Source: Verrucomicrobiales bacterium (GTDB lineage Bacteria > Verrucomicrobiota > Verrucomicrobiia > Limisphaerales > JACDHS01). From it: 38,535 bases of DNA. Both the position numbers and the translations under genes were made by a program. Below are positions 1-23,261 of the stretch, piece after piece. The stretch spans positions 1 through 38,535 of the forward strand of contig JAQGOU010000107.1 of assembly GCA_028293445.1 (NCBI GenBank). Direction: 5' to 3'. Under the pieces are notes generated by a model. It searched no databases. It was not told where the DNA came from and saw only the letters and a list, made by a program, of their open reading frames with translations. The first letter of the stretch is position 1. Each line of letters begins with the position of its first letter.

Positions 1-1732
1 CATTGCTGTCCTCTCTGATCTGCTTTGTTTCGAGAGTTCCATCTTTAATATTGTAAGTGCCCTTGCCGACGCCGCCGTTGCAGAACGCAACGCTGGCACT
101 GGAAACGGTACCACCGACTTGATTGACGATGCTCGTTGCTCCTGCGGCATAGGGGATTGCGAGGATAGCATTACCCATGGTTATGGTGCTGTTATCGATA
201 TTAAGCTGCGCCGTGATCGGGTTCGCGCTGTCTCCCACCCGCAAAGTATTGGTCGAGCTTAAAGTGAAGCTCGCTCCGTTTGTCAGGATGAGTTGCGCGC
301 CTGCTCCGGTCGGGAGGGACCCGACGGAGTAATTGCCTTGCGAAGCGAAGATGCCGCCGTCGACAATATATTTACCTTCATCGATTTTAATCGCAGGAGT
401 CGCCGCGCTGGCCTGACCAATATTCATGGTTCCTTTTAGGTGCACAGTGCCGCCGCCGCTTAAGGTGTGGTCGCCGTTTACGCCCACCGTGTTGAGGTTG
501 GTCAACAGGACTTCACTCCCACTCGCCACGTTCCATGATTTGGGGAATGTGGTGCTCCAGGAGAGGTCTCCGCCAAAGGTGTTCGTTCCCGCGAGGTTCG
601 CGATCGATGTGGTGAGCGTCCATGGCAGTCCGGAAAGTGCAAACCCGCCATTGCTGAAAGTTACGGAGGGCGCGATCAAGTCCGCTATGTCGTTGACGTT
701 CACCTGGCGCGTCGTGCCATTGAAAATGAGCGAGTTGCCAGTGATCGGAGGAACTCCGCCCCAGTTGTCGCCCGTGCTCCAGTTGTCGTCGCCGCCGCCA
801 CCGTTCCAAACCGTTTGCGAAACCGAGGGCGCGGAAATTAAAGTGACCGCAAAGTTGTCGTAGGTTGCAACTGTATTGCCCGCAATGTCCCAGCTTATAA
901 AGCGACCGGGGCCATCGAGTCGCCATTTGTTCGCAACCTCGGCGCTGGCTTGAGTATCGTAGATCAAGTTCGTCGCCGAGGCTCCGATGATATACACTTC
1001 AATCCTCGAGTTATAGTTCGTGCCGCTTTCTGGTCCCGCGTCAGTGACATGAATTCGAAAGGTAACCTCTGTTCCAAATGCTCCAGCGACGCCACCCGTG
1101 ATGATGGGACTGTTGATGTTTGTTGGGCTTGGGAATCCGTGGGATAGCGAGTTAATGCGCTTCTGCACGGTATAATTTAAGTCTGCAGTCCCGATACGAT
1201 AGAGCTGTATGCCGAAATCCCAGTTATTCGCATCAATTTCCGCGGTGGCAAATCCAAGGGAAAAACGCGCGTTACCGTTAGCCGTAGGAGTATCGTTATC
1301 CATGGTGATTTGAATCTCATAGATCGACGGATTCGTCGGACTCGCGTTGGGGACACCCAGTGCAGGAGCAAAATCAAACGGCGCCGTTCCGTTCGCGGAA
1401 AGAGTGAAGCGCCCTGAGCTGCCTGACCCAGCAACCTTTAATCTATTCGTATTCGCCGTTAGACCGTTGCCGATGGTGAATGAGTTTGTTGATTTGGCGG
1501 TGCCGGTCTGAGTATAGAGATAGCGCAGGTTCGCGGCACTCGTCCCCGTGATACGGGTGAATGGAGGCGTCCCTTGCGGATTAATTCCTGAGTTTACCCC
1601 GTTGCCCAAGGCAAAGCCGGCGTTCACATTCGTGGCAGTATAGTTATCCCTGACGATTTCCACGCCTTGAAGGGCGATACCCGATATGGCCAGCACGAGG
1701 CTGAACAGCATTGTTAGTTTATTTGTTTTCAT
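1..1732 (-). CDS. Secreted repeat protein with autotransporter-associated beta-strand repeats, 5' part (truncated by window edge)
   Basis: The reading frame is open without a stop from the ATG at 1732 to the window edge (577 codons); the 3' end is missing. Residues 1-22 form a signal peptide (MKTNKL, a hydrophobic core, then a small-residue cleavage region). Residues of about 25-270 are a beta-rich module also found at the N-termini of the proteins at 3444-5690 and 16223-23128. It is recognised by GFALGNGVNSGINP, RFTLSANGTAPFDFAPAL, NWDFGIQLYR, VTDAGPESG and ATYDNFAV. Then comes a WNGGGGDDNWSTGDNW segment and passenger-type repeats (NGTTRQVNVND, NGGFALSG, GTMNIG) closely parallel to the protein at 16223-23128. 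A GGAAGAG ribosome-binding site lies about 15 nt upstream. The gene follows the sulfatase by 48 bp and probably belongs to its operon. The C-terminal function cannot be seen. Family membership is clear; the surface or structural role is inferred. Confidence 0.85.
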   Translation of the reverse strand, partial: MKTNKLTMLFSLVLAISGIALQGVEIVRDNYTATNVNAGFALGNGVNSGINPQGTPPFTRITGTSAANLRYLYTQTGTAKSTNSFTIGNGLTANTNRLKVAGSGSSGRFTLSANGTAPFDFAPALGVPNASPTNPSIYEIQITMDNDTPTANGNARFSLGFATAEIDANNWDFGIQLYRIGTADLNYTVQKRINSLSHGFPSPTNINSPIITGGVAGAFGTEVTFRIHVTDAGPESGTNYNSRIEVYIIGASATNLIYDTQASAEVANKWRLDGPGRFISWDIAGNTVATYDNFAVTLISAPSVSQTVWNGGGGDDNWSTGDNWGGVPPITGNSLIFNGTTRQVNVNDIADLIAPSVTFSNGGFALSGLPWTLTTSIANLAGTNTFGGDLSWSTTFPKSWNVASGSEVLLTNLNTVGVNGDHTLSGGGTVHLKGTMNIGQASAATPAIKIDEGKYIVDGGIFASQGNYSVGSLPTGAGAQLILTNGASFTLSSTNTLRVGDSANPITAQLNIDNSTITMGNAILAIPYAAGATSIVNQVGGTVSSASVAFCNGGVGKGTYNIKDGTLETKQIREDSN

Positions 1733-1780: not shown

Positions 1781-3439
1781 TTATTTCGGCATCGTCTGCC
1801 ACCAGGTAATCAGTTGATCCGCCATTGAGTTGGCTAAAGTGCTCTGGCTGCCAACGACATTGGTCGTTTCAAATGGGTCAGTATTGAGGTCGTATAATTC
1901 GATGACGCTCTTGGTGTAATCCGTGAGCACTTTCCAATTGCCGATGCGCAACGCGAGGGGAGGGGCGTGATGATAATTTCCAACTCCCGGACCCGCATCG
2001 TTGATGAACCACCAATAGATCGGTTTCGTTCGCGTTTGGCTTTGACCGAGGATGGCGGCACTCATGTCTTCTCCATCGGGAATGTTATTCGCCGGCAAAC
2101 TGATTTGCGCGAGGGAGCAAACCGTCGGCAGGAAGTCCACACCACTGAGCACTGTGTTCGTGTTGATGGCTCCTTGCGGAATGTGATTGGGCCAACGGAC
2201 AATGAATGGCAATCGCGTTCCACCTTCGTAAAGACTTCCTTTGCGTCCGCGCAATCCACCATTGCGCGCTAAAGCAAATGCGGTCGTCCCATCTCCCGGT
2301 GCTCCGTTGTCGCTCGCGTAAATGACGATGGTATTCGTCGTCAGTTTCAAATTGTCCAGCGCCGTGAGAAAGCGGCCGATTTGCAAATCCAGATTCTCCA
2401 GCACCGCGTAAAACTTTTGTTCATTCACATCGGAAGTAACCGTCGAATATTTCGACCATGTCCCCGCCGCAGGTAGCCAAGCGGTGTGAACATCGTTGAA
2501 CCAGAGATTCACGTAACAGGGGTCGTTGGTATGCGCGGCGAGGAAAGCCACGGCGTCATTGACCTGGTTGGAAGCCGCCTCCGCTTTCGGCATCCACTCC
2601 AACACCCCTTGCTTCGCTTGCGCGCTGAGCGTCGACAATGCATCGCCGTTAAAAAGCACGCGGTTACCCAATCCTTCAAACGACACCACCGATTCATCAA
2701 ACCCGTAAGCCTGCGGCAACGGGGAGTCATCGACGTTTCGACCCGAATCCAAATGCCATTTCCCGAAGTGACCGGTTTTGTAGCCCGCCGCTTTAAAAGC
2801 GCGCCCGATGTTTGGCGCGAGCGGGTCCGCAAAGTCCGCCATGTTCCGCGAGCGGTTAACGCTTTTGTTGTCGAGGTAAGAGGTCACGCGCCAGCGCCCG
2901 GGATAAGAGCCAGTGAGCAACCCGGTCCGTGAAGGTGAGCAAATCGGTGAAGCCGCATGATATTGCGTAAACCGAATTCCCTGTGACGCCAGGCGATCAA
3001 TATTGGTCGTGGTGACGACGGGCGTTCCGCTCGTGCGATAACAGCTCGTGTCCGCATAGCCCATATCATCAATGAGGATGAAGACCACGTTCGGCTTGTT
3101 CGTTTGCGCCGCGCTCGCGACATGAACGAACAACGAAAGCGCGCAAATCAAAACAGTCCCGAGAATCCCAACGGGATTCCGTCCCAGAGCCCAGGGTTGG
3201 CAAAGCCTACCCTGGGATAAACGCACAAGGAATTCATCAACCACAACGTGGTTGCGTCCACCCCGTTCCTCAGTTCGTGACGCAACCCCTTCAGGGTTGA
3301 TTGAAATTGATCGCTTGACCCAGGGTAGCTCGTTCCTCGCAACCCTGGGCTTTGGGGCGCAATCCCGTTGGGATTGAAGAGAGAGCGCCCGATGCAGTCC
3401 GGTCCTCGCGCTTGCCAAATATGTTAAAAATCTTTTCAT
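1781..3439 (-). CDS. Secreted type I sulfatase (arylsulfatase family) with an interrupted signal peptide
   Basis: This 552-aa protein carries the alkaline-phosphatase-fold sulfatase signature. Metal-binding DD is in FILIDDMGYAD (about residues 120-130). The formylglycine cysteine (about residue 167) sits in PICSPSRTGLLTG, a CxPxR motif. GKWHL follows, then a second metal site in ASDNGAPGDG and GLRGRKGSLYEGGTR. Such enzymes hydrolyse sulfate esters, usually of polysaccharides, outside the cytoplasm; the substrate cannot be predicted. The N-terminus is odd. A basic start (MKRFLTYLASARTGL) is separated from the hydrophobic core (ILGTVLICALSLFVHVASA) by about 71 residues encoded by the palindromic element at 3164-3375, which is read through in frame. 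Start: ATG at 3439, with an in-frame TTG one codon upstream, 4 nt after the stop of the SUMF1 gene, so translation is probably coupled. Activity needs cysteine-to-formylglycine conversion, and the neighbouring SUMF1 protein looks unable to do that. Confidence 0.9.
   Translation of the reverse strand: MKRFLTYLASARTGLHRALSLQSQRDCAPKPRVARNELPWVKRSISINPEGVASRTEERGGRNHVVVDEFLVRLSQGRLCQPWALGRNPVGILGTVLICALSLFVHVASAAQTNKPNVVFILIDDMGYADTSCYRTSGTPVVTTTNIDRLASQGIRFTQYHAASPICSPSRTGLLTGSYPGRWRVTSYLDNKSVNRSRNMADFADPLAPNIGRAFKAAGYKTGHFGKWHLDSGRNVDDSPLPQAYGFDESVVSFEGLGNRVLFNGDALSTLSAQAKQGVLEWMPKAEAASNQVNDAVAFLAAHTNDPCYVNLWFNDVHTAWLPAAGTWSKYSTVTSDVNEQKFYAVLENLDLQIGRFLTALDNLKLTTNTIVIYASDNGAPGDGTTAFALARNGGLRGRKGSLYEGGTRLPFIVRWPNHIPQGAINTNTVLSGVDFLPTVCSLAQISLPANNIPDGEDMSAAILGQSQTRTKPIYWWFINDAGPGVGNYHHAPPLALRIGNWKVLTDYTKSVIELYDLNTDPFETTNVVGSQSTLANSMADQLITWWQTMPK
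3164..3375. repeat. 212-bp multi-hairpin palindromic element inside the sulfatase signal-peptide region
   Basis: The element is bounded by AATCCCAACGGGATT (3164-3178) and its exact complement AATCCCGTTGGGATT (3361-3375). Inside are two CCCAGGGT..ACCCTGGG hairpins (3190-3216 and 3319-3349). In the middle are the palindromes AACCACAACGTGGTT (about 3240-3254) and CAACCCCTTCAGGGTTG (about 3283-3299). It resembles the GC-rich palindromic elements scattered in Verrucomicrobiota and Planctomycetota genomes, which often leave odd peptide stretches when inserted into genes; that comparison is from memory. No transposase is encoded, so it would be a MITE- or REP-like element. Its insertion kept the sulfatase frame open. 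Confidence 0.8.
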
Positions 3440-3443
3440 CAAC

Positions 3444-5690
3444 TCACGGTGTCAGGCTGAACGTTGCAGATTCCGCCGCGACCAGGTCGTTGCCCGCGGG
3501 CAACGCCACTCGAAAACCAAAATGACCCATCGCAAAACGCGGCGGCGCATCCGCTCGGTTCGCCACGCGACTCTTCCACGCGATATCCACGCCACTGCCG
3601 CCGCGATAAACTCGATCGCCGCCCCACGATGCTGAGGACGGTCCGCGGGTGTTGTCACTCGAAGAGCGCGCGTCGGAATACCAGGCGTCGCCGTAAAGAT
3701 CCCAACACCATTCCCAGGTGTTTCCGGCCATGTCGTAAACTCCGTAGCCACTCGGACGGAAACTGCCGGTCGGCAAAACATTGGGATACGCGAGCGCCTG
3801 CGGATGAGGTCCCGGCGCGTTGTTCACGTCGAAGCTTTCGAACGAAGTGCTCCAATAATTTGCTTCCACTTGCGTAATCGTATCGCCGAAAGGAAAGCGT
3901 TTTCCTACCAACCCGCCGCGTGCCGCTTTCTCCCATTCTGCTTCCGTTGGTAAGCGATAGCCCGCGCCGTTCCAGCGCACATTGGCTTCCTTCAAATTGA
4001 CCTGGCCCGTCCGGTAGACGCTGGTCCATGCCTTGTCGACGAAGTAAGCGGGAGGGAAACTTTCTTTCTCCGAACGCGCGTTGCACCATTTCACGGCGTC
4101 GTGCCAACTCACTTGTTGGATGGGTAAATTAGCGGCTGCCGCGACGCCTGCATTATCAAAGGTGTAGCCGTGGTTGGTCGCCCATTGGGTAACATCGTCC
4201 CAGAGCGCCTTCGTGACTTCATGACGTCCGAGGTAAAATGCGCTGACGTTAACGGTGTGCGTCGGCAATTCGCAGGAGAGCCCTTCGCCTTTGCTGTCGC
4301 CCATGCTGAATGCGCCCGCTGGAATCAACGCCAGATCTGGTCCAATGAGAGATCGATCAGCCACAATTTTGATTCGCACCGTCGCGGCCGCGAGCACCGA
4401 CCAGTCAGCTCCGGCATCCCAGACAATGTGCAGGCCCGTGCCGGGATTCACTCCATCACCCACATCACCGCTGAAGCTCGCCGCCGCTGCGTGGTAGGTT
4501 TGGCCTCCGTCCGTGGAAATTAAAACAGAGATGGAAGCAGCGCCTCCGTACACATCCGACAAGTTGAAATAAATATCCACGAGGCTCGTTCCTGTCCGCG
4601 GCACGGCGATCACGTTCGTCAAGGCCAGTCCGGAATGCGCCAGTTGCGCGACGGCAAAATAGTTCGCTGCCGTGCGATTGATCGTGGCGGTCACGGCCGT
4701 GCTGGTGGTCGCGGCGGTTAAGTTCGCGGCGAGCAACCACGCCGGTGAACCGAGTTCCGTCGATCGCAGCACAGAATAATTCGTTCCGGGCAGACTATTC
4801 CACGCCAGTTGCAAGCCGCTCGGCGGAACAAGCTGCTGCGAAGTAATCTTAAATGGATGATTGGTGAGAACAGGGGGCGCGGGCGGGGGCGATACCGTCA
4901 GCGAGAAGGCGTCGTAAGTGACGGGGCCGGCGCCGCCCGCCGTATCGAACAGAACGAGTCGTGCGGCTGAACCTTCAAAACGAAAATCATTCGTCGCACT
5001 GGTAAAGAGGAGTGAATTGTTGACGAACACTTCGTAACGCGAATTGAAATTTCCCGCGCCCGACTCCGCGCCCGCGTCGGTGATGCGCAGCCGCAAATCA
5101 ATTTCGTCACCCGCGGCGTCGATCAGGGTGGCGATAATGTTATTGTAATCGGCGCCACTTGGATTCGAGCCGCCATCGACGCGGCGATAGATATAGAGAT
5201 TGGCATTACTGTTCACCAGTTGGATGCCGAGGTCCCAGTCTTGAATGCCACCATCAACGGGTGCCAGGCCGAAGGAGGTCCGCTCGGTCCCCGGACTTTT
5301 ATTGGCAATCTTCACCGCCAATTCGTAAATGACCGGATCGGTTGGAGTCGCCTCGCTGGTCCCGAGGGCGGGTTGTAAATCGAATGGATTGGAGCCATCG
5401 GACGTGAAGGTGAAACGTCCCGCCCCGCCCGTCGCGGTCACGTTGATTTTGTTACTGAGAATAGAATAGCTGGAAGGCGACCTGGTCGTGGCGGTTTGCA
5501 GATAACTCACCCCGGACGCCGCCGTCCCGCCGAGGCGCGTGCTGACCTGATAATTGACACCCGTATTCACGTTAAAACCAGACCCTGAAGAACTGCCTCC
5601 CGTCACATCACAGGAGTCAGAAAGTACAACCTGCCCGAAAAGCGACACCGAGCGAAGCGCCAGGAGCGTGATGAGAAGGAAATATTTCAG
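3444..5690 (-). CDS. Secreted SUMF1 (formylglycine-generating-enzyme fold) protein with shared beta-rich N-terminal module; lacks the catalytic cysteines
   Basis: Numbered from the GTG at 5648 (734 aa). Residues 1-225 are the module shared with the proteins at 1-1732 and 16223-23128 (SGSGFNVNTGVN, ITDAGAESG, VTYDAFSL). Residues of about 240-435 are Ig/Fn3-like, ending in a GDVGDGVNPGTGLHIVWDAG segment typical of bacterial SUMF1 proteins. Residues of about 438-718 are the SUMF1 domain: LIPAGAFSMGDS, YLGRHEVTKALWDDV, VSWHDAVKWCNARS, GYRLPTEAEWEKAARGG, YDMAGNTWEWCWD, VYRGGS, FGFRVAL. The stretch after RGGS reads GVDIAWKSRVANR, without the two cysteines that true FGEs carry in this loop, so it is probably not a formylglycine-generating enzyme. 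The frame continues upstream of the GTG into LKYFLLITLLALRSVSLFGQ, a good signal peptide, but the stop at 5697 leaves only ATC (5696, 5693) or CTG (5690) to start it. CTG 5690 is given here. It heads the cluster with the sulfatase. Confidence 0.85.
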   Translation of the reverse strand: MKYFLLITLLALRSVSLFGQVVLSDSCDVTGGSSSGSGFNVNTGVNYQVSTRLGGTAASGVSYLQTATTRSPSSYSILSNKINVTATGGAGRFTFTSDGSNPFDLQPALGTSEATPTDPVIYELAVKIANKSPGTERTSFGLAPVDGGIQDWDLGIQLVNSNANLYIYRRVDGGSNPSGADYNNIIATLIDAAGDEIDLRLRITDAGAESGAGNFNSRYEVFVNNSLLFTSATNDFRFEGSAARLVLFDTAGGAGPVTYDAFSLTVSPPPAPPVLTNHPFKITSQQLVPPSGLQLAWNSLPGTNYSVLRSTELGSPAWLLAANLTAATTSTAVTATINRTAANYFAVAQLAHSGLALTNVIAVPRTGTSLVDIYFNLSDVYGGAASISVLISTDGGQTYHAAAASFSGDVGDGVNPGTGLHIVWDAGADWSVLAAATVRIKIVADRSLIGPDLALIPAGAFSMGDSKGEGLSCELPTHTVNVSAFYLGRHEVTKALWDDVTQWATNHGYTFDNAGVAAAANLPIQQVSWHDAVKWCNARSEKESFPPAYFVDKAWTSVYRTGQVNLKEANVRWNGAGYRLPTEAEWEKAARGGLVGKRFPFGDTITQVEANYWSTSFESFDVNNAPGPHPQALAYPNVLPTGSFRPSGYGVYDMAGNTWEWCWDLYGDAWYSDARSSSDNTRGPSSASWGGDRVYRGGSGVDIAWKSRVANRADAPPRFAMGHFGFRVALPAGNDLVAAESATFSLTP

Positions 5691-5718
5691 GATGATCTAT
5701 TTTAGCCCCCGCCAGAAC

Positions 5719-5747
5719 GCGAAAGGAATACCCGCAAATTAGGGTGT
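5719..5747 (-). promoter_or_regulatory. Operator-like dyad ACCC-N8-GGGT upstream of the SUMF1/sulfatase cluster
   Basis: On the plus strand, GCGAAAGGAATA is followed directly by CCCGCAAATTAGGGTGT. Almost the same sequence occurs at 23262-23292 upstream of the metallophosphoesterase gene: an extra A and G in the first part, and G to A within the dyad. The core is an inverted repeat, ACCC-N8-GGGT. In both places it lies upstream of a minus-strand gene whose product has the shared N-terminal module. A shared regulator-binding or promoter element is inferred; no factor is identified. Confidence 0.5.
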
Positions 5748-11511: not shown

Positions 11512-12138
11512 CTACCGGCTTCCGGCTTTTAAGATCGCCTGCGTTCGGGAATGAACGTGCAGCTTACCGTAGATCGTTTTCAAATAACTGCGGACCGTCG
11601 CGGCCGTGAGGCCCAGGGCGTCGGCCACTTCTTTGTCGCTGTAACCACGCGCGACGTACCCCAACACTTCGGACTCACGTTTGGAGAGGAGTTCATCGGG
11701 CTTGGCCGAAGGAGTCTGGCGCTGGAAGGATTGCACCACTTTTCGCGCAATGTAGGCGGACATCGGCGCTCCACCACGATGGACATCCTGGATGGCCTGG
11801 AGAATTTCGTCGGCCGGGGCGCGTTTGAGCAGGTAACCGCTGGCGCCCATTTGTAACGCCTGAAAAATGCGATCGCTGTCGTCGTAAACGGTCAGCATGA
11901 CAATGTGTGTGTCGGGAAGGAGCGCGCGTAATTGCCGGGTGCATTCCACGCCTGAAATTCCGGGCAGGTTGATATCCATGAGCACCACCTTCGGTCGACG
12001 CGCGGGTAGATCCCGAATGGCTTCTTCGCCGCTGGCGTAGCTGCCGACGCATTCCAGCCCTTCGGTTTCCCGAATCAGTCGCTCCAGATTCGTGCGCCAA
12101 CGCGGGTCATCTTCAACGATAGCAACTTTGAGCAACAT
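11512..12138 (-). CDS. NarL/FixJ-type response regulator
   Basis: This 208-aa regulator has an N-terminal receiver domain (about residues 3-120): acidic pocket D10/D11, phospho-acceptor D55 in VVLMDINLPG, T83 and K105. The LuxR-type helix-turn-helix lies at about 148-205 (LLSKRESEVLGYVARGYSDKEVADALGLTAATVRSYLKTIYGKL). It is expected to be phosphorylated by the kinase encoded 4 nt upstream and then to bind DNA as a dimer. The linker is short, as usual in this family. It is the last gene of the four-gene run. Its targets are unknown; the operon itself and genes with the ACCC-N8-GGGT dyad are candidates. Confidence 0.95.
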   Translation of the reverse strand: MLLKVAIVEDDPRWRTNLERLIRETEGLECVGSYASGEEAIRDLPARRPKVVLMDINLPGISGVECTRQLRALLPDTHIVMLTVYDDSDRIFQALQMGASGYLLKRAPADEILQAIQDVHRGGAPMSAYIARKVVQSFQRQTPSAKPDELLSKRESEVLGYVARGYSDKEVADALGLTAATVRSYLKTIYGKLHVHSRTQAILKAGSR

Positions 12139-12142
12139 AAAA

Positions 12143-15100
12143 TTAGTTCGACTTCACCTTCGGCAATGGGACTGTGAAATCCAATCTCGTCCCTTTTCCT
12201 TTTTTACTTTGGATAGCGAGCGTGCCTCCAAGCCGCTCGATGCGTTCGCGAAGATTGGCCAATCCATCGTGACCTTCGCCTTCCGCTTTTCCAAACAGGC
12301 CACGGCCGTCGTCAGCGATCGTGAGACGGAGTTGGCTGTCGTCACAGGCGAGTTCCAGATAAACCTCCGTGGCCTTCGCATGTCGGACCACGTTGTTAAA
12401 ACATTCCTTAACGATGAGGAGCAGTTGATGACGCGTTTCCATCGCCAATGGGTGCGACGGCAGATTCGCGGGAAGTTCCAAGCGGGTTCGCAGTTCGGTT
12501 GGTCGGAAAAAATCGCGCGTAAATTGTGCGACGTAATTCGCGAAGTTGTCGACTGAATCATTGCGGGGATTCAGCGCCCAGACGATGGCATCCATGGCGG
12601 CGACGCTCTCTCTCGCGGTTTCCGAGATCTGGTCGAGTTCCCGCGCAACGGCAACGGGATCGGATTTATGTCGAGCGCCCATGTCAGCCATCAAACCGAT
12701 ACTGGTGAGATTGGCGCCGAGTTCATCATGAATGTCCTGCGCGATGCGGGCCCGCTCACGGTCGAGGGCTTGTTGTTGACGCAACACTTCGACGCGGCGT
12801 CTCAATTTCAGCACCGTCGCGCGCCGGATCATCCAGACACCACCGCCGGCCAATGCGGCAGCAACTGCCGCTAGAAACCAATTCGTTTGCCAATAATAGG
12901 GATGAACCGCCAGCGCCAGCATGGCCGGTTGTGAACTCCATACGCCTTCAGGACTGCACGCGATGACACGGACCACGTGATCGCCCGCCGGAATGCTCGC
13001 GTAATTGACGGAGCGGGTTGTGCCCGCATCCACCCAGGCGGCATCCAAACCTGACATTTGATAACGAAAGCGGACGCGTTCCGGCGCGGTCAAACAGGGT
13101 GCGGTGAAGCGAAATTCCAATTGTGCCGGACCGGGGCGAAGGCGTTGCAATTCGGCTTTTGTGACTGGTTTTCCATTCAACAGAGTTTGCTCAAGCAGTG
13201 CTTGCGGTGGTTTGCTCTCCGGCAAATCTTCAGGCTTAAAATGAATCGCGCCATTTGCAGTGGCGAACCAAAGTTCTCCATTTTGCGCGCGCCAGCAACG
13301 TGGGTCGCACCAGGAGGCAAACGAGACATCGGGCAATCCATCGCTCCGGCCATAAGTAATGGCATCGACTTTGTCTCCGTGACCGTCAGCCACGGCGTTC
13401 AACTGCGTGAGCGTCATTCGAAAAAGTCGATGCGGCGTGCCGCCCCAGAGGAAGTTTTTGTCGAGAAGCAATTGTTGAATGCAAACATCAGGCAGACCTT
13501 GCTCCTGCGAGATGCGGGTGGTCTGTCCGTTTTTGACGCGTAATAATCCTCCTCCGCTGGTCCCGAGCCAGAGCGCTCCGTCGTGGGCGACCATGGCTCG
13601 CACGGCGTCGGCGTGTCCGCTTGCTTTGCGAACAACTTCCCAACGCTCGTTCTTGAATCGAGCGACGGCTCCTTCCCAATCGCTCGCCCATAAATTACCG
13701 GCATCGTCTTCGACCATTCTCCGGATGTGTTCGCTGGGCAAGCCTTCGGGCACGGAGTAACGCTTGAGATTATTTTTTTCCAGACAGTAGATTCCCGAAT
13801 TGTCGGTCACCATCCACAAGCGGTTCTGTCGGTCTTCGAGGAGATCCATCACGGATTCGGTTGGACCTTTAGGGCCCAGGTCGCGCCGGCTCAATTTACC
13901 ATTTGACCAGTGCCACAAGCCGCGGTGAATCGTGGAGATCCAGACACTGCCATCGTTGACCGGCAACACACAAAGCGAATCAAAACTGCGCCAGCCGTCC
14001 GTTTCGCCTAAGCCATGCCAAACACCATTTTGCCACCAGCCCAATCCGCCGTCCGCAGTGACGAGCCAAACGCGGCCGGCTTTATCCTGTGAAAGACTGC
14101 GCACGAATTCATTTCTCAGGCCGCTTCTTATATCGTGCATGAAAAACTGTCGCTGCCGCACGCGCACGAGGCCGCTTCCTCGCGTACCGACCCAGAGATT
14201 TTCCTGCTCATCTTCCAACAGGCACGAAATGCTGCTCGCCGTCGGAACGACTTGTTTAAACTCACCACCGACGTAGCAGAACAAACCTTGCCCGAGCGTT
14301 CCGATCCAAACACGTTGCCGACTGTCCTCGAAGAGGCAAGTGACTCGTGACAGACCTGCCCAGGGAAAGGTCGCAATGTCGCGAGTGACACCATTCGCTG
14401 TGACAATCCGGAGCTTGGCTTCGCGCGCGATCCACATTCCACCGGCCTGTCGTGGAGCTGCCATCAAGGTTGCGGTGCCGGGCGTCGCGATATCGCGCCA
14501 TTTTTCATTTTCGTAAATCTTAAGGTTGCGCGCGCCAGCCAACCACAAATTGCCCTCGAAGTCGCGGACCCACCTTGATGCCGACGACGCTTCGACATCG
14601 CTCAACTGTTCCGCCTTATGCGGTGCTTCAATTGAGAATCGTCCCACGCCGCCATTTACATCGACCCAAACAATATTTTTATTGGTGTCCGTGCACAGAC
14701 TAACCACGCGGGCTTTCACCGAGCCATTCGTCAACACCTCCGTAAACCCGGTAGCGTCACGTCGAATGAGCCCAGCTTGATCAGGAGCAATCCACAGTCG
14801 ACCCAGGGCATCCAGTTCGAGCGGCCCCATATGTGTGCCAATGCGCGGACCGGTGGGGGTGTTGTAAAAGGTTTCGAAGCGAGCACCGTCGAACCGGATC
14901 AATCCCTGATGGCTCCCCATCCAGAGATAACCATCCGGTGTCTTTTTCAACTCCTGGATTTCATTCACTGGCAAACCGTCGCCCGTTTTCCAGGTCGTGA
15001 TCATGAACTCGGACGTTTGATCAATGTCATCCCGGAGTAGCGTGGCGGGAGGTTCGTCGCTGGTGTTTAAATCTGGAGCACTTAACAAAGGAAAAGCGCC

Positions 15101-15214
15101 GACGCCGAGCGCGCCTATCGAGAGTAGAGCGATAACGATCCGTTTTAAAGTCACAGCCGTCTTGAGTGAGGGCTTAGTGTAACAGAAGAGAATCACTGAG
15201 CCTATCAAATCCAC
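12143..15214 (-). CDS. Sensor histidine kinase with beta-propeller sensor, Y_Y_Y domain and HisKA_3/HATPase core
   Basis: This 1023-aa membrane sensor has an N-terminal signal segment (about residues 24-45, RIVIALLSIGALGVGAFPLL). A long run of two-component-regulator propeller repeats follows to about 690 (repeated GLIRFDG, LWIAPDQAGL, VWIGTLGQGLF, LWVGTRGSGLV, LWLGTSGGGLLR). Next come a Y_Y_Y domain at about 705-770 and one transmembrane helix at about 779-796. The kinase core has phospho-accepting H829 in RIAQDIHDELGANL (HisKA_3 type), the N-box KECFNNVVRHAKA, IADDGRG, and GHDGLANLRERIERLGG. Unlike the hybrid kinases of Bacteroides it has no receiver domain; that is a separate gene next door. 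Such propellers usually sense oligomeric breakdown products outside the inner membrane. The start is GTG 15214, one base after the stop of the nuclease gene (TGACGTG). A GTG at 15154, just before the signal segment, is the alternative. Confidence 0.92.
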   Translation of the reverse strand: MDLIGSVILFCYTKPSLKTAVTLKRIVIALLSIGALGVGAFPLLSAPDLNTSDEPPATLLRDDIDQTSEFMITTWKTGDGLPVNEIQELKKTPDGYLWMGSHQGLIRFDGARFETFYNTPTGPRIGTHMGPLELDALGRLWIAPDQAGLIRRDATGFTEVLTNGSVKARVVSLCTDTNKNIVWVDVNGGVGRFSIEAPHKAEQLSDVEASSASRWVRDFEGNLWLAGARNLKIYENEKWRDIATPGTATLMAAPRQAGGMWIAREAKLRIVTANGVTRDIATFPWAGLSRVTCLFEDSRQRVWIGTLGQGLFCYVGGEFKQVVPTASSISCLLEDEQENLWVGTRGSGLVRVRQRQFFMHDIRSGLRNEFVRSLSQDKAGRVWLVTADGGLGWWQNGVWHGLGETDGWRSFDSLCVLPVNDGSVWISTIHRGLWHWSNGKLSRRDLGPKGPTESVMDLLEDRQNRLWMVTDNSGIYCLEKNNLKRYSVPEGLPSEHIRRMVEDDAGNLWASDWEGAVARFKNERWEVVRKASGHADAVRAMVAHDGALWLGTSGGGLLRVKNGQTTRISQEQGLPDVCIQQLLLDKNFLWGGTPHRLFRMTLTQLNAVADGHGDKVDAITYGRSDGLPDVSFASWCDPRCWRAQNGELWFATANGAIHFKPEDLPESKPPQALLEQTLLNGKPVTKAELQRLRPGPAQLEFRFTAPCLTAPERVRFRYQMSGLDAAWVDAGTTRSVNYASIPAGDHVVRVIACSPEGVWSSQPAMLALAVHPYYWQTNWFLAAVAAALAGGGVWMIRRATVLKLRRRVEVLRQQQALDRERARIAQDIHDELGANLTSIGLMADMGARHKSDPVAVARELDQISETARESVAAMDAIVWALNPRNDSVDNFANYVAQFTRDFFRPTELRTRLELPANLPSHPLAMETRHQLLLIVKECFNNVVRHAKATEVYLELACDDSQLRLTIADDGRGLFGKAEGEGHDGLANLRERIERLGGTLAIQSKKGKGTRLDFTVPLPKVKSN

Positions 15215-15215
15215 G

Positions 15216-16211
15216 TCACCAGGTCTGTTTCAATTCCAGGGCGATACGCTCGGCTGCGAGGACGAGGCGTTGCCGCGCAATCTTCCGGGCGTCTTTGATA
15301 AAATCCTCACTCAAGGTTGGAATGGCGGACGTTGGAATTTTTCCTGATTCCACATCCTCCTCGTGTACAAATTGCATGCGATCCTCGGCATAGGCAAAAT
15401 CGACGGCGAGGTGAAAACTTTCCTGCACCCATGAGGCGATGGTTTTGTGTTGCTCCAGGTCTTTGAGTTTCTGTGGCTTGAGTTCAGGAGCGGCATTGAG
15501 TTCATCCGCCAGCGCGGCCGCTGTTTGGTACGAGGGATTCACGCCCGGCAACTGATCCCAAAATGAGTGAAGGTCGATCTGTCTCTCTCCTTCAACCCTA
15601 ACAATATGGTGTCCGCCCAAACTGTCTCCACGCGGCCGTTTTTTCGTCACGAGATTTGCGGCATGCAGCGGTTGATGCAGATCGCCGCACAAGTGAAGAG
15701 CCCAGCAGAGACTTACCGCACGATCGGATGCCGTCGCCTTTACGTTCTTCAGATTCGCGAAGGAGTTCGACAGCACCATTTCGGCATCGGGTTTGGCGAT
15801 GTAAAAATCCTCGAGCGAAACGCGATTCGTATCCCGCGACAACATGAAGGGATAACCAATGGCGTGCGGATACAGATCGTACTTCGTAACGGAATGCGGT
15901 TTGGAGCGTTGCCCATGTTTTGCCGGACGCACCATATCCGGCCAGTTGGCAGCCATCAGAAATGCCCACTCATTTTTATCCACTCCGCGAGGGACATCCG
16001 CCGTAAGAATTGATTTGTAATGCGGATGTTGCTTCAGGAGATCTGAAACTGCCTGGCGCTCGTCTTTATCCAGTTTTCGCCAGACCAGTTCAGCAATCGT
16101 ACGGTGTCCCACGTTATTCCAGGCCCTCACGGGGAGGGCCTGGAATGTTAACGCGATCCACACTACGAACAGCAACTTGGTTGAGTCTCGGGAGATACGT
16201 TTTGCGTTCAT
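15216..16211 (-). CDS. Secreted S1/P1-type zinc-dependent nuclease
   Basis: A 331-aa protein. Residues 1-30 are a signal peptide ending in ALPVRA, which would expose tryptophan 31 at the mature N-terminus. In the S1/P1 family that N-terminal Trp directly ligates zinc, and the WNNVGHR start matches. Further zinc-binding blocks are NWPDMVR, CWALHLCGDLHQPLHAA and GGHHIVRVEG..IDLHSFWD, which together give the His/Asp trinuclear zinc site. Family members degrade single-stranded DNA and RNA and act as 3'-nucleotidases; some bacterial and eukaryotic relatives are phospholipase C-like. Start: ATG 16211, 11 nt after the stop of the metallophosphoesterase gene. An in-frame TTG at 16226 overlaps that stop. 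Translational coupling and joint secretion with the phosphoesterase suggest nucleic-acid or phosphate scavenging. Length is typical of the family. Confidence 0.92.
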   Translation of the reverse strand: MNAKRISRDSTKLLFVVWIALTFQALPVRAWNNVGHRTIAELVWRKLDKDERQAVSDLLKQHPHYKSILTADVPRGVDKNEWAFLMAANWPDMVRPAKHGQRSKPHSVTKYDLYPHAIGYPFMLSRDTNRVSLEDFYIAKPDAEMVLSNSFANLKNVKATASDRAVSLCWALHLCGDLHQPLHAANLVTKKRPRGDSLGGHHIVRVEGERQIDLHSFWDQLPGVNPSYQTAAALADELNAAPELKPQKLKDLEQHKTIASWVQESFHLAVDFAYAEDRMQFVHEEDVESGKIPTSAIPTLSEDFIKDARKIARQRLVLAAERIALELKQTW

Positions 16212-16222
16212 CAATATCGCCG

Positions 16223-19200
16223 TCAAGGAACTACTTTGATGCGATAAAAGCGAACTCCATTTAAAACAGCGTCAGCATCCGTGAACGATTGGGTCGAAGG
16301 TTCTCCCGATGGACTGTGATCTGTTTCAGTCTCAGTATCCTGCTCGATGTCATTGAAATCTCCGTCAAGCCCGTCCGCATATTGGACCCGGTAGCGTGTG
16401 CCGCCAACAGAAGACCAAGTCAGCGTAACTTGTCCGTCCGCTTCGAGTTTCGTATCAACAACACGCAGAACGGATGCCGCGTTGGTTGGATTCGTATTGG
16501 CAATGAACTCGGCGAAGTTACTCTGTCCATCACCATCGTTATCTGCTTTGGCGTCGGTGATACCGTATGTCGCTTCCCAGTCATCGGGAATGCCATCAGC
16601 GTTAGCGTCGTTCGAAGCAGTCCTCGCAAAGCCAGCGGTCGTGGTGAATTTCCATTCGGGACTGGTGGAGTAATCACCTAACTCATCGGCCACGGTGACG
16701 TACCATTCATAGCCCTTGCTCGCCAGCAGGCCCGACCAGGTATTGCTCGTTTGCGTGCCGGCAACGACGTTGATGTTTGTTTTCAAGGCGGTGTAAGCCG
16801 TGGCTGGCGAACCAGCGCCATTCGGTTGCATATTATACGTATACGAGAACTGGCTATTGGCATCGGTCTCGAAGTTACCCGTGTAAGGCGAGAAGGTTTT
16901 GATGCTGATCGTATTATTGGCCGGTGAAAAATACATCAGCCGCATCAAGCCATTGCCGCCATTGAAGCGTCCCTGGTAATCAGAGATCAACGTGCGCACG
17001 GTGTGGCCGTTAAATGTATCCGAGCGACGGCCTTCGCCACCTTCGTTGAAAACGTGGCCCCCGAGCATCATGAAAAAGTTGGGGTTAGGTTTAAGCGCAG
17101 CGTAGATGGCCGCGCCTTGTGTGCTGAAAGGCGCTGTTACGGTGTCATCCGGAGTATCATCGCCAGCGTGATGTGTCAGGACCAGCACGCGGCGAGTCGG
17201 ATATGTCGCGATAACGTTGTTGGCCCAATCCATGATTAACGAACCGTAGCGCCCGTATTCAAAAGAGATGACGAGGAAATCCATTCCTCCAGCACTGAAC
17301 AGATCATACCAACTGTCATTGTTCGTGTCGTAATGGCCTCCGTAATAGGACTTGCCGGTAAAATGCGAACTTCCGAAATATTGGTTGTAAAAAGCGGTCG
17401 AACCATCTGGATCGCCATTGGGATCCTGGTCATGATTGCCCACAGTGATGCCGTAAGGAATGCCCTCCAGGAGCTGGGTGCTGGACTGTTTTTCCAACCG
17501 ATAATTGGCGTTGGTAGCATTCTTCCACTGGAAAAGTTGATCTGCATTGTTGACGCAATCACCCAATGTCGCGACGAAAGGAATGTTCTCAGAGACACGA
17601 TTAGCGATAATCCAATCCATTTGCGCAAACCACATTTCCTTCGTTGCCGTACCGCTGCCGGCGGCTTCTCGCGCGTAATTTTGCGTGTCAGGCAAAACTG
17701 GAATGAGGAAGTCGGGACCGGGTCCAGGTACGGCGAGCCGGTGCCCGAAGAAGGTCACCGTTAAATTGCCGCCCGCCGTGTTGTTGGCGGTAACTTTCAA
17801 ACTCGGAGCCGAAGCAATGTTGGTGGCGTTATTAGCCGGGGCGACGAGCGTCGCGGTTGGTGCGGGAATGAACACGAACGAAACTGCTGCTTCAGGGGGT
17901 GTTTGCAAGCCCATCCCGGGAATGTCGCGCGATTGAATAATCCAGTCATTGCCGCTCGGTTGTGCGCTAACAACGTTGTCGGCGTTGAAGGGGGCGCCAC
18001 CTTCCGCGGAAATAACCAGGACGCCTTTGGACGATGAGTAGCCAGGGATCGTCAGCTTCCAGGTGCCATTGGTGGTGTTCGTGACACTGAAACGTGCCGA
18101 ACTCCCATTATACATCAGGATCGTGCCATCACCGTGAAATTTCCCGGAGATAATCGAAACGTTTGTCTTGGGAATAAAGGCAAAAGCGACCGGGCCCTGC
18201 GCCGTGGTTGTTGAATTGGTCAGGTTATTTTTAACATATACCGACCAGGTCCCATCGGTATTGGCTTTCGATGAAGCGTAGTAGTTGTTATTGGCGCCGG
18301 CGGTGACGAGCAGAACACCATCCGTTTGTGAATTGATTCCGAAGCTACTCAGATTCACGGTGGAAAGCCCGGCACCGTTATCGACGAAATGCGTTCCCAA
18401 CGTCAATCCGGATGAGGCGGTCAGCAGATCATTCGCGCCGCCAACGGTTCCCGCGGAATTGCGCGCATAGCCACCGAGCCATTTTGCGTAAGGGAAGAAG
18501 GCCGCGGAGACGTTGATATTATATTCGGCTCCGTCCTCGGTTGTTGCAGTAGGAATAAAGTATCCAGTCGAGGTGCTGGCCATGGCGCTGGTGCAATAGT
18601 TAATGCCAGAGTCTTCGCCGTGATCGCGTCCGTTTTCAGCCACCGACGTCACCAGGACGCCGGTCGTTAAATCATCCGTGGCCGACGTTCCAACCTGCAC
18701 CGTGTAATCGCCGCGACTGGAACCATCCCGAACCAGCAAGCCGTTGATCGAAACGGTCGTCGTGACTTCTACGGAATTAGTCGTGTTGGCCAAATCTTTT
18801 TCAATTACTTTGATGCTTGCCGCAGAAACTCCATGCGCCGGGACAAACACTTTCACGGAGATCAATCCGGCGGATTCCACAATCTTCGCGACGAGACCCA
18901 TTCCCAGGCCGGAACCAGTGATCGTCGGAGTCACGTTGAATGAACCGGTTTTTGTTCCCGTGTAGGTAATCAATGAATACGTGCCAACATCGAGGGGGCC
19001 GCCGGTGACGTTGACCGTGATAACGTTGGCACTCAGCGTGATGTTGCCTGAAATATTCAAGGTGCCGACGGTTCCGGTGGTGCCGTCCGCCGTGAGAGAA
19101 GCTTTCGCTCCCGAAGCGAAGGTAACGGCGCCGGTGACAGTCCCCGCGCCCGTCGCAGAATTGCGTGATAGCGTCTGGCTTGCGGTGAGCGCATAACCGG

Positions 19201-22200
19201 CAATGGCAGACACGTTGTAAGTGGCGCTGCTGGCCAGTGAGATTGTGGTGCTCGCGAGTGAGCCGCCGACCGCCAACGCCACCGTTCCAGCGCTAATTGT
19301 GGTTGCGCCCGTATGCGTATTGGCACCACTCAACGTTAGTGTGCCCGCGCCTTGCTTCACCAGGCTGCCGCTGCCGGAGATGCTTCCCGCAAACGTGCTC
19401 GCGCTCGCATCACCAACGGTCAGTGTACCTGAACCGAGAACAACCTGACTGAAGCTGCTCGCACTGGAAATCGAAGCAACCGTTTCGCTGAAGCTATTCA
19501 AATCGAAACGTCCACTTCCAGAAATGTCGACCGCCCCGGAATCAACGATTTGGTCTGCGGCATCCAATCGAAGGATATCCGCCGCTGCACCACCTACACC
19601 GTCACCGACAGTAATACTGCCGGCGATGGCATTGACGCCCGCGGATTTCGCCAATGAAAGAGTTCCTGCATTCACGAGCGTAGCACCCGAATATGTATTC
19701 GCACTTGCGCCGGAAAGTTGGAGAAGACTATTGCCTTCTTTAGTCAGGCCGCCTGCCCCGCTGACGATGCCGCCGAGGGTAAAAGCCCCCGAATCAGATT
19801 GAATCCGCAACGCGGCGCCAAGCGTCAATCCCGCGTTCAACGCGTTGTTTCCAGTGGCGTTTGTAATCGCGGCCGTGACGGTTAAGGCATTGCCATAAAG
19901 CGCAAATCCATCGCTGTTGAAATTCACAGAGGGCACGCTCAGTCCACTGATGTTGTTGGTGTTGATCAGGCGCGTCGTGCCGTTAAAGATGAGTTTGTCA
20001 CCCGTAACCGGAGCCACACCATCCCAGTTTGCCACTGTGCTCCAATTGCCGTCAGTTCCGCCGCCGGACCAGTTGCGTCCGGTCGAATAAATACGAAGGC
20101 TGATTTGGCCGGTGGTTTCCACCAGCTCAATCAAGTAACCGGGAGCTACTCCGGAACCGGTGATGACCGGTGTGGAATTAAAGGATCCACTTTTCGCGCC
20201 GCTGTAAGTGACGAGGGGATAAGTGCCAGCGCCAAGCGGGGAACTATTAATATTGATGGTCAGTGTATTTCCGTTCAGCGTTAGTCCGCCCACGATGCTT
20301 AATGTGCCAATGGATCCCGCCGTTCCATCCGCTTGCAAAGAAACCTGCGCACCTGAGGTGAAAGCCACGGAGCCGTTTACATTTCCTGCGCCGGAAGATG
20401 CGTTGCGAATCAGGGTCTGACTCGCCCCAACCGCGTAGCCACTCACCGCCGAAACATTGAACGTTGCGCCACTCACAATCGTGATGCTGGGTGAACTAGC
20501 AATTGAACCGCCCGCTCCCAACGCCAGCGTTCCTGCGCTGATGGTAGTGGTTCCACTAAATGAATTCGCACCGCTCAACGTCACCGTGCCGGAACCTTGC
20601 TTCACCAGATTTCCGGTGCCGGAAACAGTTCCTGCAAACGTATTCGCGCTGGTATCGCCGACTGTCAACGTGCCTGCGCCCAAAATGATTTGGCTGCTCG
20701 CACTTGCACTGGAAACAGAACCGATCGTTTCACTGAATCCATTCAAATTTAACGAACCGCCCGCGGCAATCGTAACCACTGCTGAATCCGCAATTTGATT
20801 GGCCGCATTCAATTGCACGGTATCCGTGCCGATTCCGTCCCCGATCGTGACATTGCCGGGAAGAGCGTTGCCCGCTGTTTTCGCCAGCAAAAGCGTTCCC
20901 GCATTCACCAGCGTGTTGCCGGAGTAAGTATTCGCACTGCTTCCGGAAAGCTGGAGAACGCCGGTTCCATCTTTGGTCAAACCGCCGGTGCCACTCACGA
21001 TTCCTGAAAGTGTCGTTGTTCCACTGCTGGTCGCTGCGATAGATCGCGTCGCGCTGCCGAGGTTAACTCCGCCGGACAAAGTAACGGCTTCGATTCCTGC
21101 CACCGTAAAATTCCCACCGACTACCACCGCACCACTTAATGTCTTGGCGCCGCCAGTTCCCGTCAGTGTGCCGCCGTTGATCGTGATGGTTCCGGTGCCG
21201 AGCGCAGCATTATTGCCCACGGTCAACGTTCCCGCAGTCAAAGTTGCACCGCCACTGAAACTGTTGTTCGTGTTCAACGTTAAGGCAGCGCTGCCCGTTT
21301 TGGACAATGCGCCGGTGCCGCTCAAGGTTTGGTCAACGATGATATCACTCAGGACATCCAGCGTGAGTCCGCCTGCTTGAATTTGCGCGACATCGAGAGT
21401 GTTCATGAACGGACTGAGCGCTCCGGCGTCGGTGCGCACAGTTGCATTGTCGAAGAAAATGGACGACGAACCTCCGGTGATATTCTTCCGGATTTGTTTG
21501 GCTACGAGCGTGCCGTTTTTAATGGTGTAGGTACCGGTGCCTGCGCCGACGTCATTGAAGAGAATCGTACCGGGAGTAACGGTGCCGCCTACCTGGTTGA
21601 TGACGCCGATGGCACCCGCTGCGTAAGGAAGCGCGAGATGGACACCACCTGCCAGCGTCAAGGTGCTATTATCAATATCCAGTCGGCTGGCGACGGGATT
21701 GGCGCTGTCGCCGACCCGCAAATTGCCACCGGCCGCCGTAATCGTAAGATTTGCGCCATTGGTTAGAATCGTTTGTGCGCCCGGGCCCGTGGCGAGCGAT
21801 CCGACGCGATAGCCACCGATCGTATTAAACGTGCCGCCGTCGATAATGTGCTTGCCTTCATTAATGGCAAAGGCCGGATTGGCCGTAAAATTCATGGTCC
21901 CTTTTTGCCGCAAGGTGCCGCCGCCGATCACGCTGTGGTCTCCGATGTCGCGAATCGTAGTTGTATTATCCAGCAACAGTTCGCCGCCAGTGGCGATACT
22001 CCAGGTTTTCACTGCGGTGGAACTCCAGTCGAGGCCAGCCTTCAACGTGTTAACACCTGCGAGATTGGTGAGTGCACTCGTGTTGGTGAATGTATTGCCC
22101 CAAAGCGTGAACCCTCCGTTGTTGAAAGCCACATAAGGCACAGTCAAACCAACGAGGTTATTCGTGTTGGCAGGACGGGTGGTTCCGTTGAAAATCAACG

Positions 22201-23128
22201 CGCTCCCATTGATCGGAACCGCGCCGTTCCAATTTGTCGTGTTGTTCCAATTGGCATTGGCGCCAAGGCCGTTCCAGATCCGAGGACCGGAATTCCAGTT
22301 CAAAGAAAAATTGTCATAAGTGACCGCCGCATCGGGTGCGATGTCCCACATCAGGATCCTGCTCGCGCCGTCCAATCGCCAGCCGCTGGTGAGATTGGCA
22401 TCGGTGGCAGTATCATAAAACCAGGTGCTGCCGCCATTGATTGATAGTTGCACGCGGGAGTTGAAACCACTGGTTTGCGCCCCCGCATCCGTGACGCGCA
22501 TCAAAATGGTGATCTCCGTTCCGTAAGTCGCCGCGGCCATGGTCAAAACCGAGGCATTCAAATCGGCGGCCAAACCCGAGGAACCGGTATCAATCCTTTT
22601 TCCGATCGTATAGAAATTATCCGTGGCGACATTGCGATAAACCTGGAAGCCAAAATCCCAGGTCGTAGCATCGCCCTCCGCAGTGCCCAGAGCGAATGAG
22701 GACCGTTGCGTTCCGACTGAGTCGTTGTCGATGCTGATGGAAAGATCATAAACGGCGGGATTCGCAGGACTCGCATTCGCGATGGCCAGTGCCGGAGCGA
22801 AATCGAACGCCGTCGTTCCGTTTGCCGAAGGAGTGAACCGCCCTGGATTGATTGCTGAGGTCACCTTCGCTTTGCTGGTGGTAATCGTGTAGACATTTGT
22901 CGCCTTGGTTCCGGTATTGATATATCGGAGTCCAGCGGCCACGGATCCAGTCAAACGGGTCGTAGGCGGATTGATGCCCGAATTGACGCCAGCATTCAGC
23001 GCGAAACCGGACCCGGTCCCGGTCACATTGTAACTATCGCTGAGAATTGTTGTTGCGCCATGAACTGGAGCAACGGACAAAATGCCCAGAAGGACGCCGG
23101 AGAGCAGTATTTTATGAGATGTTTTCAT
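16223..23128 (-). CDS. Giant secreted protein: shared N-terminal module, autotransporter-type repeats, calcineurin-like metallophosphoesterase, Ca-binding C-terminus
   Basis: A 2301-aa secreted protein. Signal peptide 1-24 (MKTSHKILLSGVLLGILSVAPVHG). The shared beta-rich module spans about 25-260 (GSGFALNAGVNSGINP, VTYDNFSL). About 265-1400 holds two WNGLGANANWN / WSGGGTDGNWS segments and many autotransporter-associated repeats of the type TLSGANSFSGTTTISAGTLALG. About 1400-1790 is a beta-rich region with VAFAFIPKTNVS and FVFIPAPTA. The phosphoesterase spans about 1807-2100: VLPDTQNY (DxQ in place of DxH, as in related secreted members), LGDCVNN, VGNHDQD, LTHHAGD and GGHVF supply the two-metal site. 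After an Fn3-like part, about 2170-2215 has Ca-binding DxDxDG repeats (DANADGIPDDW, DNDGDGQSNF). There is no autotransporter barrel and no PEP-CTERM tail. The ATG at 23128 is chosen because it begins the signal peptide and the upstream open frame contains the regulatory dyad. It is the first gene of a four-gene run. The substrate (nucleotide, phosphoester or phosphoprotein) is unknown. Confidence 0.9.
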   Translation of the reverse strand: MKTSHKILLSGVLLGILSVAPVHGATTILSDSYNVTGTGSGFALNAGVNSGINPPTTRLTGSVAAGLRYINTGTKATNVYTITTSKAKVTSAINPGRFTPSANGTTAFDFAPALAIANASPANPAVYDLSISIDNDSVGTQRSSFALGTAEGDATTWDFGFQVYRNVATDNFYTIGKRIDTGSSGLAADLNASVLTMAAATYGTEITILMRVTDAGAQTSGFNSRVQLSINGGSTWFYDTATDANLTSGWRLDGASRILMWDIAPDAAVTYDNFSLNWNSGPRIWNGLGANANWNNTTNWNGAVPINGSALIFNGTTRPANTNNLVGLTVPYVAFNNGGFTLWGNTFTNTSALTNLAGVNTLKAGLDWSSTAVKTWSIATGGELLLDNTTTIRDIGDHSVIGGGTLRQKGTMNFTANPAFAINEGKHIIDGGTFNTIGGYRVGSLATGPGAQTILTNGANLTITAAGGNLRVGDSANPVASRLDIDNSTLTLAGGVHLALPYAAGAIGVINQVGGTVTPGTILFNDVGAGTGTYTIKNGTLVAKQIRKNITGGSSSIFFDNATVRTDAGALSPFMNTLDVAQIQAGGLTLDVLSDIIVDQTLSGTGALSKTGSAALTLNTNNSFSGGATLTAGTLTVGNNAALGTGTITINGGTLTGTGGAKTLSGAVVVGGNFTVAGIEAVTLSGGVNLGSATRSIAATSSGTTTLSGIVSGTGGLTKDGTGVLQLSGSSANTYSGNTLVNAGTLLLAKTAGNALPGNVTIGDGIGTDTVQLNAANQIADSAVVTIAAGGSLNLNGFSETIGSVSSASASSQIILGAGTLTVGDTSANTFAGTVSGTGNLVKQGSGTVTLSGANSFSGTTTISAGTLALGAGGSIASSPSITIVSGATFNVSAVSGYAVGASQTLIRNASSGAGNVNGSVAFTSGAQVSLQADGTAGSIGTLSIVGGLTLNGNTLTININSSPLGAGTYPLVTYSGAKSGSFNSTPVITGSGVAPGYLIELVETTGQISLRIYSTGRNWSGGGTDGNWSTVANWDGVAPVTGDKLIFNGTTRLINTNNISGLSVPSVNFNSDGFALYGNALTVTAAITNATGNNALNAGLTLGAALRIQSDSGAFTLGGIVSGAGGLTKEGNSLLQLSGASANTYSGATLVNAGTLSLAKSAGVNAIAGSITVGDGVGGAAADILRLDAADQIVDSGAVDISGSGRFDLNSFSETVASISSASSFSQVVLGSGTLTVGDASASTFAGSISGSGSLVKQGAGTLTLSGANTHTGATTISAGTVALAVGGSLASTTISLASSATYNVSAIAGYALTASQTLSRNSATGAGTVTGAVTFASGAKASLTADGTTGTVGTLNISGNITLSANVITVNVTGGPLDVGTYSLITYTGTKTGSFNVTPTITGSGLGMGLVAKIVESAGLISVKVFVPAHGVSAASIKVIEKDLANTTNSVEVTTTVSINGLLVRDGSSRGDYTVQVGTSATDDLTTGVLVTSVAENGRDHGEDSGINYCTSAMASTSTGYFIPTATTEDGAEYNINVSAAFFPYAKWLGGYARNSAGTVGGANDLLTASSGLTLGTHFVDNGAGLSTVNLSSFGINSQTDGVLLVTAGANNNYYASSKANTDGTWSVYVKNNLTNSTTTAQGPVAFAFIPKTNVSIISGKFHGDGTILMYNGSSARFSVTNTTNGTWKLTIPGYSSSKGVLVISAEGGAPFNADNVVSAQPSGNDWIIQSRDIPGMGLQTPPEAAVSFVFIPAPTATLVAPANNATNIASAPSLKVTANNTAGGNLTVTFFGHRLAVPGPGPDFLIPVLPDTQNYAREAAGSGTATKEMWFAQMDWIIANRVSENIPFVATLGDCVNNADQLFQWKNATNANYRLEKQSSTQLLEGIPYGITVGNHDQDPNGDPDGSTAFYNQYFGSSHFTGKSYYGGHYDTNNDSWYDLFSAGGMDFLVISFEYGRYGSLIMDWANNVIATYPTRRVLVLTHHAGDDTPDDTVTAPFSTQGAAIYAALKPNPNFFMMLGGHVFNEGGEGRRSDTFNGHTVRTLISDYQGRFNGGNGLMRLMYFSPANNTISIKTFSPYTGNFETDANSQFSYTYNMQPNGAGSPATAYTALKTNINVVAGTQTSNTWSGLLASKGYEWYVTVADELGDYSTSPEWKFTTTAGFARTASNDANADGIPDDWEATYGITDAKADNDGDGQSNFAEFIANTNPTNAASVLRVVDTKLEADGQVTLTWSSVGGTRYRVQYADGLDGDFNDIEQDTETETDHSPSGEPSTQSFTDADAVLNGVRFYRIKVVP

Positions 23129-23261
23129 GATGAGTTCTGCGTCTGGGCAAATCACACCGGACCAGGGTGGATTCATAAACAGCCAGCTCCTCGCGGGCAC
23201 ATTGAGGCCAGCAAAGAGACGGCGAAAGTTGCGGGAATGGTTGGATACTGAAATGAACTGA

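Follow-up and report, generated by a model that had tools for sequence, protein, structure and literature searches.

The inverted repeat ACCC-N8-GGGT that stands upstream of two operons in the 38,535-nucleotide stretch analysed here (the window) is likely the operator of the response regulator encoded at 11512-12138, used at promoters that this regulator would activate. We infer binding by the regulator, its dependence on phosphorylation, activation rather than repression, and the signal. For a cluster of secreted proteins that share an unannotated domain, in an order that has received little study, sequence alone thus allows the regulator, its site and its targets to be proposed. Dyad operators of NarL-type regulators are familiar; the regulon and the operator described here are new, and we found no description of the dyad operator in the open-licence literature. 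The window is one entire contig of a 6.9-Mb draft genome in 659 contigs (G000), whose relatives are verrucomicrobial.

Two Near-Identical Dyads Upstream of Module-Encoding Operons

Site 1 (5719-5747) reads gcgaaaggaatacccgcaaattagggtgt and site 2 (23262-23292) reads gcgaaaagggaatacccacaaattagggtgt. They have 29 bases in common, apart from a single G/A substitution and two bases inserted 3' of gcgaaa. The exact inverted repeat in both is ACCC-N8-GGGT, and the flanks are unlike each other. Read in the orientation of the genes, on the minus strand, the dyad is ACACCCTAATTTGYGGGTATTCC. The full palindrome is longer than ACCC-N8-GGGT, since other sites of the same genome extend it to ATACCCTA-N4-TAGGGTAT, as found at positions 159-178 of locus L036. 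The pattern ATACCC-N8-GGGTGT has exactly two perfect matches within the window; when up to two mismatches are allowed there are five, against a shuffle mean of 1.7, and the two sites, each counted once per strand, account for four of the five. The two sequences and this count bear out the initial annotation, which had described near-identity over about 29 bases, an exact inverted repeat core and differing flanks. It had also placed both sites ahead of minus-strand genes whose products share an N-terminal module, and this is correct: dyad 1 lies 38 nt upstream of the lead gene of operon B and dyad 2 lies 144 nt upstream of that of operon A (Table 1). Tandem CGTCTAT heptamers adjoin dyad 1 at 5773-5820 and are followed, at 5880-6190, by a repeat of about 60 bp that contains cgattgcagaagaaaaattccgacgttggatcc.

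Table 1. Dyads, promoter elements and genes of the two operons in the window.
Feature	Position	Strand	Remarks
Dyad 1, proposed response regulator operator	5728..5747	-	ACACCCTAATTTGCGGGTAT; extended identity 5719-5747
-10-like hexamer TAAAAT	5699..5704	-	23 nt after dyad 1
Operon B gene 1, shared module (4896-5630) and FGE/SUMF1-like domain	3444..5690	-	G172 orthologue with dyad directly upstream
Operon B gene 2, sulfatase	1781..3442	-	Pfam PF00884
Operon B gene 3, shared module (842-1657)	1..1731	-	cut by contig end
Dyad 2, proposed response regulator operator	23273..23292	-	ACACCCTAATTTGTGGGTAT; extended identity 23262-23292
-10-like hexamer CAGTAT, weak match	23245..23250	-	22 nt after dyad 2
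Operon A gene 1	16223..23128	-	signal peptide, shared module, PATR/autotransporter-type beta-strand repeats, metallophosphoesterase-like domain
Operon A gene 2, secreted S1/P1-type nuclease	15216..16226	-	Pfam PF02265; 4-nt overlap with gene 1
Operon A gene 3, sensor histidine kinase	12143..15214	-	Reg_prop, Y_Y_Y, HisKA_3, HATPase_c
Operon A gene 4, NarL/LuxR-type response regulator, proposed dyad-binding factor	11512..12138	-	recognition helix TVRSYLKTIY

The genes of operon A are separated by gaps of -4 to +4 nt. Its first gene encodes a secreted protein of 2301 aa, with the module at 22286-23053 and the metallophosphoesterase-like domain at about residues 1802-2101; the latter is 67% identical to a separate phosphatase-like secreted protein of the related genome G001, which has a dyad of its own. 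The first gene of operon B has no ATG, GTG or TTG near its signal peptide, and its start codon is probably the CTG at 5688-5690. This start comes only about 10 nt after the -10 hexamer, which would leave a very short leader or none. The module gene at 1-1731 comes last in the same operon and therefore lacks a separate site.

No Pfam family matches the shared N-terminal module, which is about 255 aa long. AlphaFold2 models it (pLDDT 78) as a beta-sandwich that weakly resembles the structures of alginate lyases and (ConA-like) lectins, so that a carbohydrate-related role is possible. The module is present in 6 of 320 genomes of the order (G000, G001, G172, G247, G271 and G028). Elsewhere in the window, the minus strand at 27951-28600 has an open frame that repeats the unit LFPLRKNxRRARKVFxRSGKTS, and L070 and L088 contain repeat-like frames similar to it.

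Genome-Wide Distribution of the Sites

Across the whole genome, allowing up to three mismatches to the 20-base pattern gave five matches, and none for the reversed control. The 17-base core ACCCTANTTTNNGGGTA, at up to one mismatch, gave eight matches in 6.9 Mb, all of them preceding secreted-protein genes: two in the window, two at module genes of contig C29, three at tandem secreted MBL-fold genes of C455 and one at a secreted amidase gene of C327, where the site lies 391 nt before the gene and matches the search pattern without mismatch. Included in the eight are the sites of the three tandem secreted MBL-fold (ComEC-like) paralogues at L036 159-3463, each of which has its own dyad and -10. 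A loose pattern at two mismatches did no better than its reversed control (26 matches versus 47), and we therefore kept to matches with no more than one mismatch. Among operon-leading module genes with available upstream sequence, the dyad is found in 4 of 4 in G000 and in 1 of 1 in G001; the other module genes of these two genomes are operon-internal or at contig ends.

The near-identity of some 29 bases at two places of one contig is what copies of a mobile or repeated element could look like. There are, however, just eight sites in 6.9 Mb, nearly all in one orientation and at a fixed distance from a -10 hexamer, their flanks are unrelated, and the sequence has diverged at the promoters of relatives. 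Copies regardless of gene context were not observed and the distribution of the sites contradicts them, which makes this explanation extremely improbable. Scatter inside genes or at random positions, named at the outset as the outcome that would speak for a mobile repeat, was thus absent: the genome-wide search with inspection of downstream genes showed that every match with no more than one mismatch precedes a secreted-protein gene, and sites fall almost only at such promoters.

Promoter Geometry

Across 15 oriented sites, the -10-like hexamers peak 21-23 nt after the dyad, a value reached by 0 of 2000 shuffles. Visual inspection had already revealed the 22-nt spacing at some of the sites, so this 15-site test is partly confirmatory. 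It excludes the C327 site at 2080, whose -10 candidates proved a poor fit on inspection; it fits the spacing only via a second, adjacent dyad on its 3' side, TGTACCCCCATAAGGGGGAT, with TAAACT 22 nt further on. In an unselected set of 42 palindromes located after paralogous response regulator genes, the hexamer peak falls at 20-22 nt and 0 of 1000 shuffles reach it. At some sites the hexamers are weak (CAGTAT, TACCGT). If the start of the hexamer is taken as -12, the centre of the dyad is near -44.5. NarL activates the E. coli ogt promoter from -44.5 (PMC7419079).

As an inverted repeat, the dyad could also be read as an RNA-level element, a hairpin or terminator. Its position upstream of the -10 puts it outside the transcript of the following gene, its centre is A+T-rich with no T run, and an Rfam search over the window returned tRNA only, with no match at the dyad. 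We give this reading next to no weight.

The Response Regulator as the Probable Binding Factor

The protein encoded at 11512-12138 combines Response_reg (PF00072) with a GerE/LuxR HTH (PF00196) and is thus of the NarL/FixJ type. It is encoded in the operon behind dyad 2, alongside its cognate HisKA_3-type kinase (12143-15214). Of the 320 genomes, five (G000, G001, G172, G247 and G271) have a close orthologue, defined as at least 68% identical and with a helix R[SA]YLK, and all five bear the module; the RxY-class regulators of contig C38 (47%) and of G102 (51%) lie outside this definition. Counted by genome, the hypergeometric probability of this co-occurrence is 2e-10, and counted by family 9e-6; both values are too small owing to relatedness, but four families are involved. 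The initial annotation had suggested this regulator, or else another factor, as the one behind a co-regulation of the two clusters. Its place in one of the operons, the tracking of the module by its orthologues in 320 genomes, and the presence of paralogues with the helices RSYIK, RSYLK and RGYLK beside ACCC/GGGT dyads all point to it as the predicted factor.

Two other candidates for the binder have to be weighed. With the same promoter geometry, the main binder could be another RxY-class regulator, that of C327 or C38, or several could act in crosstalk. These two have the helices RSYIK and RSYLK, similar dyads lie beside both, and the C327 site has zero mismatches to the search pattern. On the other hand, the sole RxY-class regulator of the subfamily in G001 is the orthologue of the window regulator, and the sites are still present there; in G172 and G247 sites are kept adjoining the orthologue; and the dyads of C38 and of the RGYLK regulator differ in their centre (CCCCCATTCGGGGG). 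A different main binder is therefore unlikely, if worth keeping in mind. Less probable again, by our estimate, is an unlinked transcription factor of another kind, for which the regulator would merely be one of the regulated genes. Palindromic operators are common to many regulator families, binding of the dyad by the response regulator is a prediction, and an AraC-type regulator adjoins the C455 sites. Against this, neither window operon encodes another regulator, the response regulator and the module co-occur across families, and paralogous kinase-regulator operons have their own dyads at the same distance from the -10.

Conservation of the Dyad in Relatives

We trained a weight matrix on the sites of G000 and G001 and tested it on module promoters of other genomes. 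Scores of 6.9-26 were obtained for module promoters of G172 (4) and G247 (2) and for a module-gene remnant of G272, while among random 300-nt stretches the 95% point lies at 5.0 and the 99% point at 8.2. It was the pattern alone that led to the G272 site. In G172 the kinase and regulator genes are followed directly by a dyad and then by an FGE-module gene, a sulfatase gene and a module gene, the counterparts of operon B; in G247 another dyad precedes a sulfatase gene. The dyad at corresponding promoters of distant relatives argues that the site is real.

The correspondence between regulator and site is incomplete. Among relatives that carry the regulator, the dyad is present at module promoters of G001, G172 and G247 and absent in G271, where the weight-matrix scan recognised no dyad at the single module gene; as G271 has an orthologue (helix RAYLK), this counts against a simple model. 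G272 has a dyad before its module remnant, yet no orthologue at 68% identity or above. The same scan recognised no dyad at the module gene of G028, a genome without a close orthologue. At L305 1-480 of G028, the module gene without dyad has TTGACC upstream, which suggests a promoter independent of the regulator.

A scan of 146 relatives with the 20-mer at two mismatches returned only G000 and G001 and missed G172, G247, G271 and G272, which were found later. Order-wide matches to the pattern are partly intragenic or before unrelated genes (G147, G149, G265 and others) and were not counted. Absence from the promoters of all relatives, the other finding that would have spoken against the dyad as a regulatory site, is not what we see: it is present in G001, G172 and G247 and absent in G271 and G028. 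Together, the location at secreted-protein promoters, the fixed distance to the -10 and the recurrence in G001, G172, G247 and the G272 remnant support the co-regulation first proposed for the two clusters.

Paralogous Kinase-Regulator Pairs

G000 encodes about 20 paralogous pairs of Reg_prop/Y_Y_Y kinase and NarL-type regulator. In L035 and L070-L088 (contigs of G000 and G001) the pairs often adjoin a gene for a secreted N-acetylmuramoyl-L-alanine amidase, and each pair may have a palindrome of its own. Several regulator paralogues, some from other genomes, have a palindrome just after the regulator gene and before a secreted-protein gene. ACCC/GGGT-type dyads are found with RSYIK (C327) and RSYLK (C38), ACCCCC/GGGGGG types with RGYLK, TAGTC/GACTA with RAHLR and RAHIR, ATGAC/GTCAT with SNHLR and NNHLR, ATCCCCC/GGGGGAT with RSHLK, and GTCNCC/GGNGAC with HTYIR. 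The variable helix positions of the paralogues align with the recognition helix of VraR.

Palindromes follow 32 of 126 regulator genes, against 8.5 in shuffles, terminator-like hairpins being among them. Downstream dyads score higher for regulators with RxY[LI]K than for 110 others (P = 0.005). A partial Mantel permutation of helix against dyad, given overall regulator similarity, yielded r = 0.076 and P = 0.058, which falls short of significance, with a noisy choice of dyads (53 chosen, 24 expected by chance). Individual helix-dyad pairs are in line with a helix-site code, which is therefore a lead. We consider it quite possible, while stopping just short of favouring it, that in this order the paralogous pairs, as an expanded family, form a readable specificity system, in which many regulator genes directly precede a target gene, a single cognate palindrome lies at the target promoter at a fixed distance, about 32 bp from centre to -10, and its arms follow the recognition helix. 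Examples, to be taken as tentatively as the system itself, would be RSYLK with TACCC/GGGTA, and RSHLK, RAHLR, HTYIR and NNHLR with the arms given above. If true, the DNA code of LuxR-type output domains could be read from genomes. The pairs, with palindromes next to them, lend themselves to working out how LuxR/NarL-type regulators select their DNA, and to us are the most interesting part of these results.

Proposed Mechanism

In our proposal, a signal sensed by the Reg_prop/Y_Y_Y kinase (12143-15214) would lead to phosphorylation of the response regulator. A dimer of the phosphorylated regulator would bind sites resembling the full palindrome, about 44.5 bp upstream of the transcription start, and would recruit RNA polymerase to promoters whose -10 hexamer follows the site at 21-23 bp. 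The targets would make up a small secreted-protein regulon of module-bearing phosphatase, nuclease, sulfatase-cluster and MBL-fold proteins, operon A included. Since the kinase and regulator genes are inside operon A, the switch may exert positive feedback on its own kinase-regulator pair.

Comparison with Known Systems

The consensus of NarL sites is a pair of TACYYMT heptamers arranged as a 7-2-7 inverted repeat. The dyads described here do not conform to the E. coli site, as their arms are TACCCTA and their spacer is 4 bp. At the E. coli ogt promoter, NarL uses 7-2-7 sites centred at -44.5 and -77.5 (PMC7419079). Shared with that promoter are the LuxR/NarL-type output domain, the inverted-repeat operator, its centre near -44.5 and a TATCTT-like -10. 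Besides the arms and spacer, the differences are a single dyad at most promoters, the Reg_prop/Y_Y_Y kinase and the other target genes.

The solved structures closest to the window regulator are VraR, LiaR, DesR and DevR, the best being VraR (E = 3e-32, full-length). The HTH aligns with that of VraR without gaps, but the recognition helix is TVRSYLKTI in the window regulator and TVKTHVSNI in VraR. As far as is known, neither the operators nor the functions of these four proteins are shared with the window regulator.

In Bacteroidota, hybrid two-component systems with Reg_prop/Y_Y_Y sensors carry an AraC-type output in the same protein. The system described here has the same sensor domain types and, like those systems, adjoins its target genes; unlike them, it consists of a separate kinase and a NarL-type regulator.
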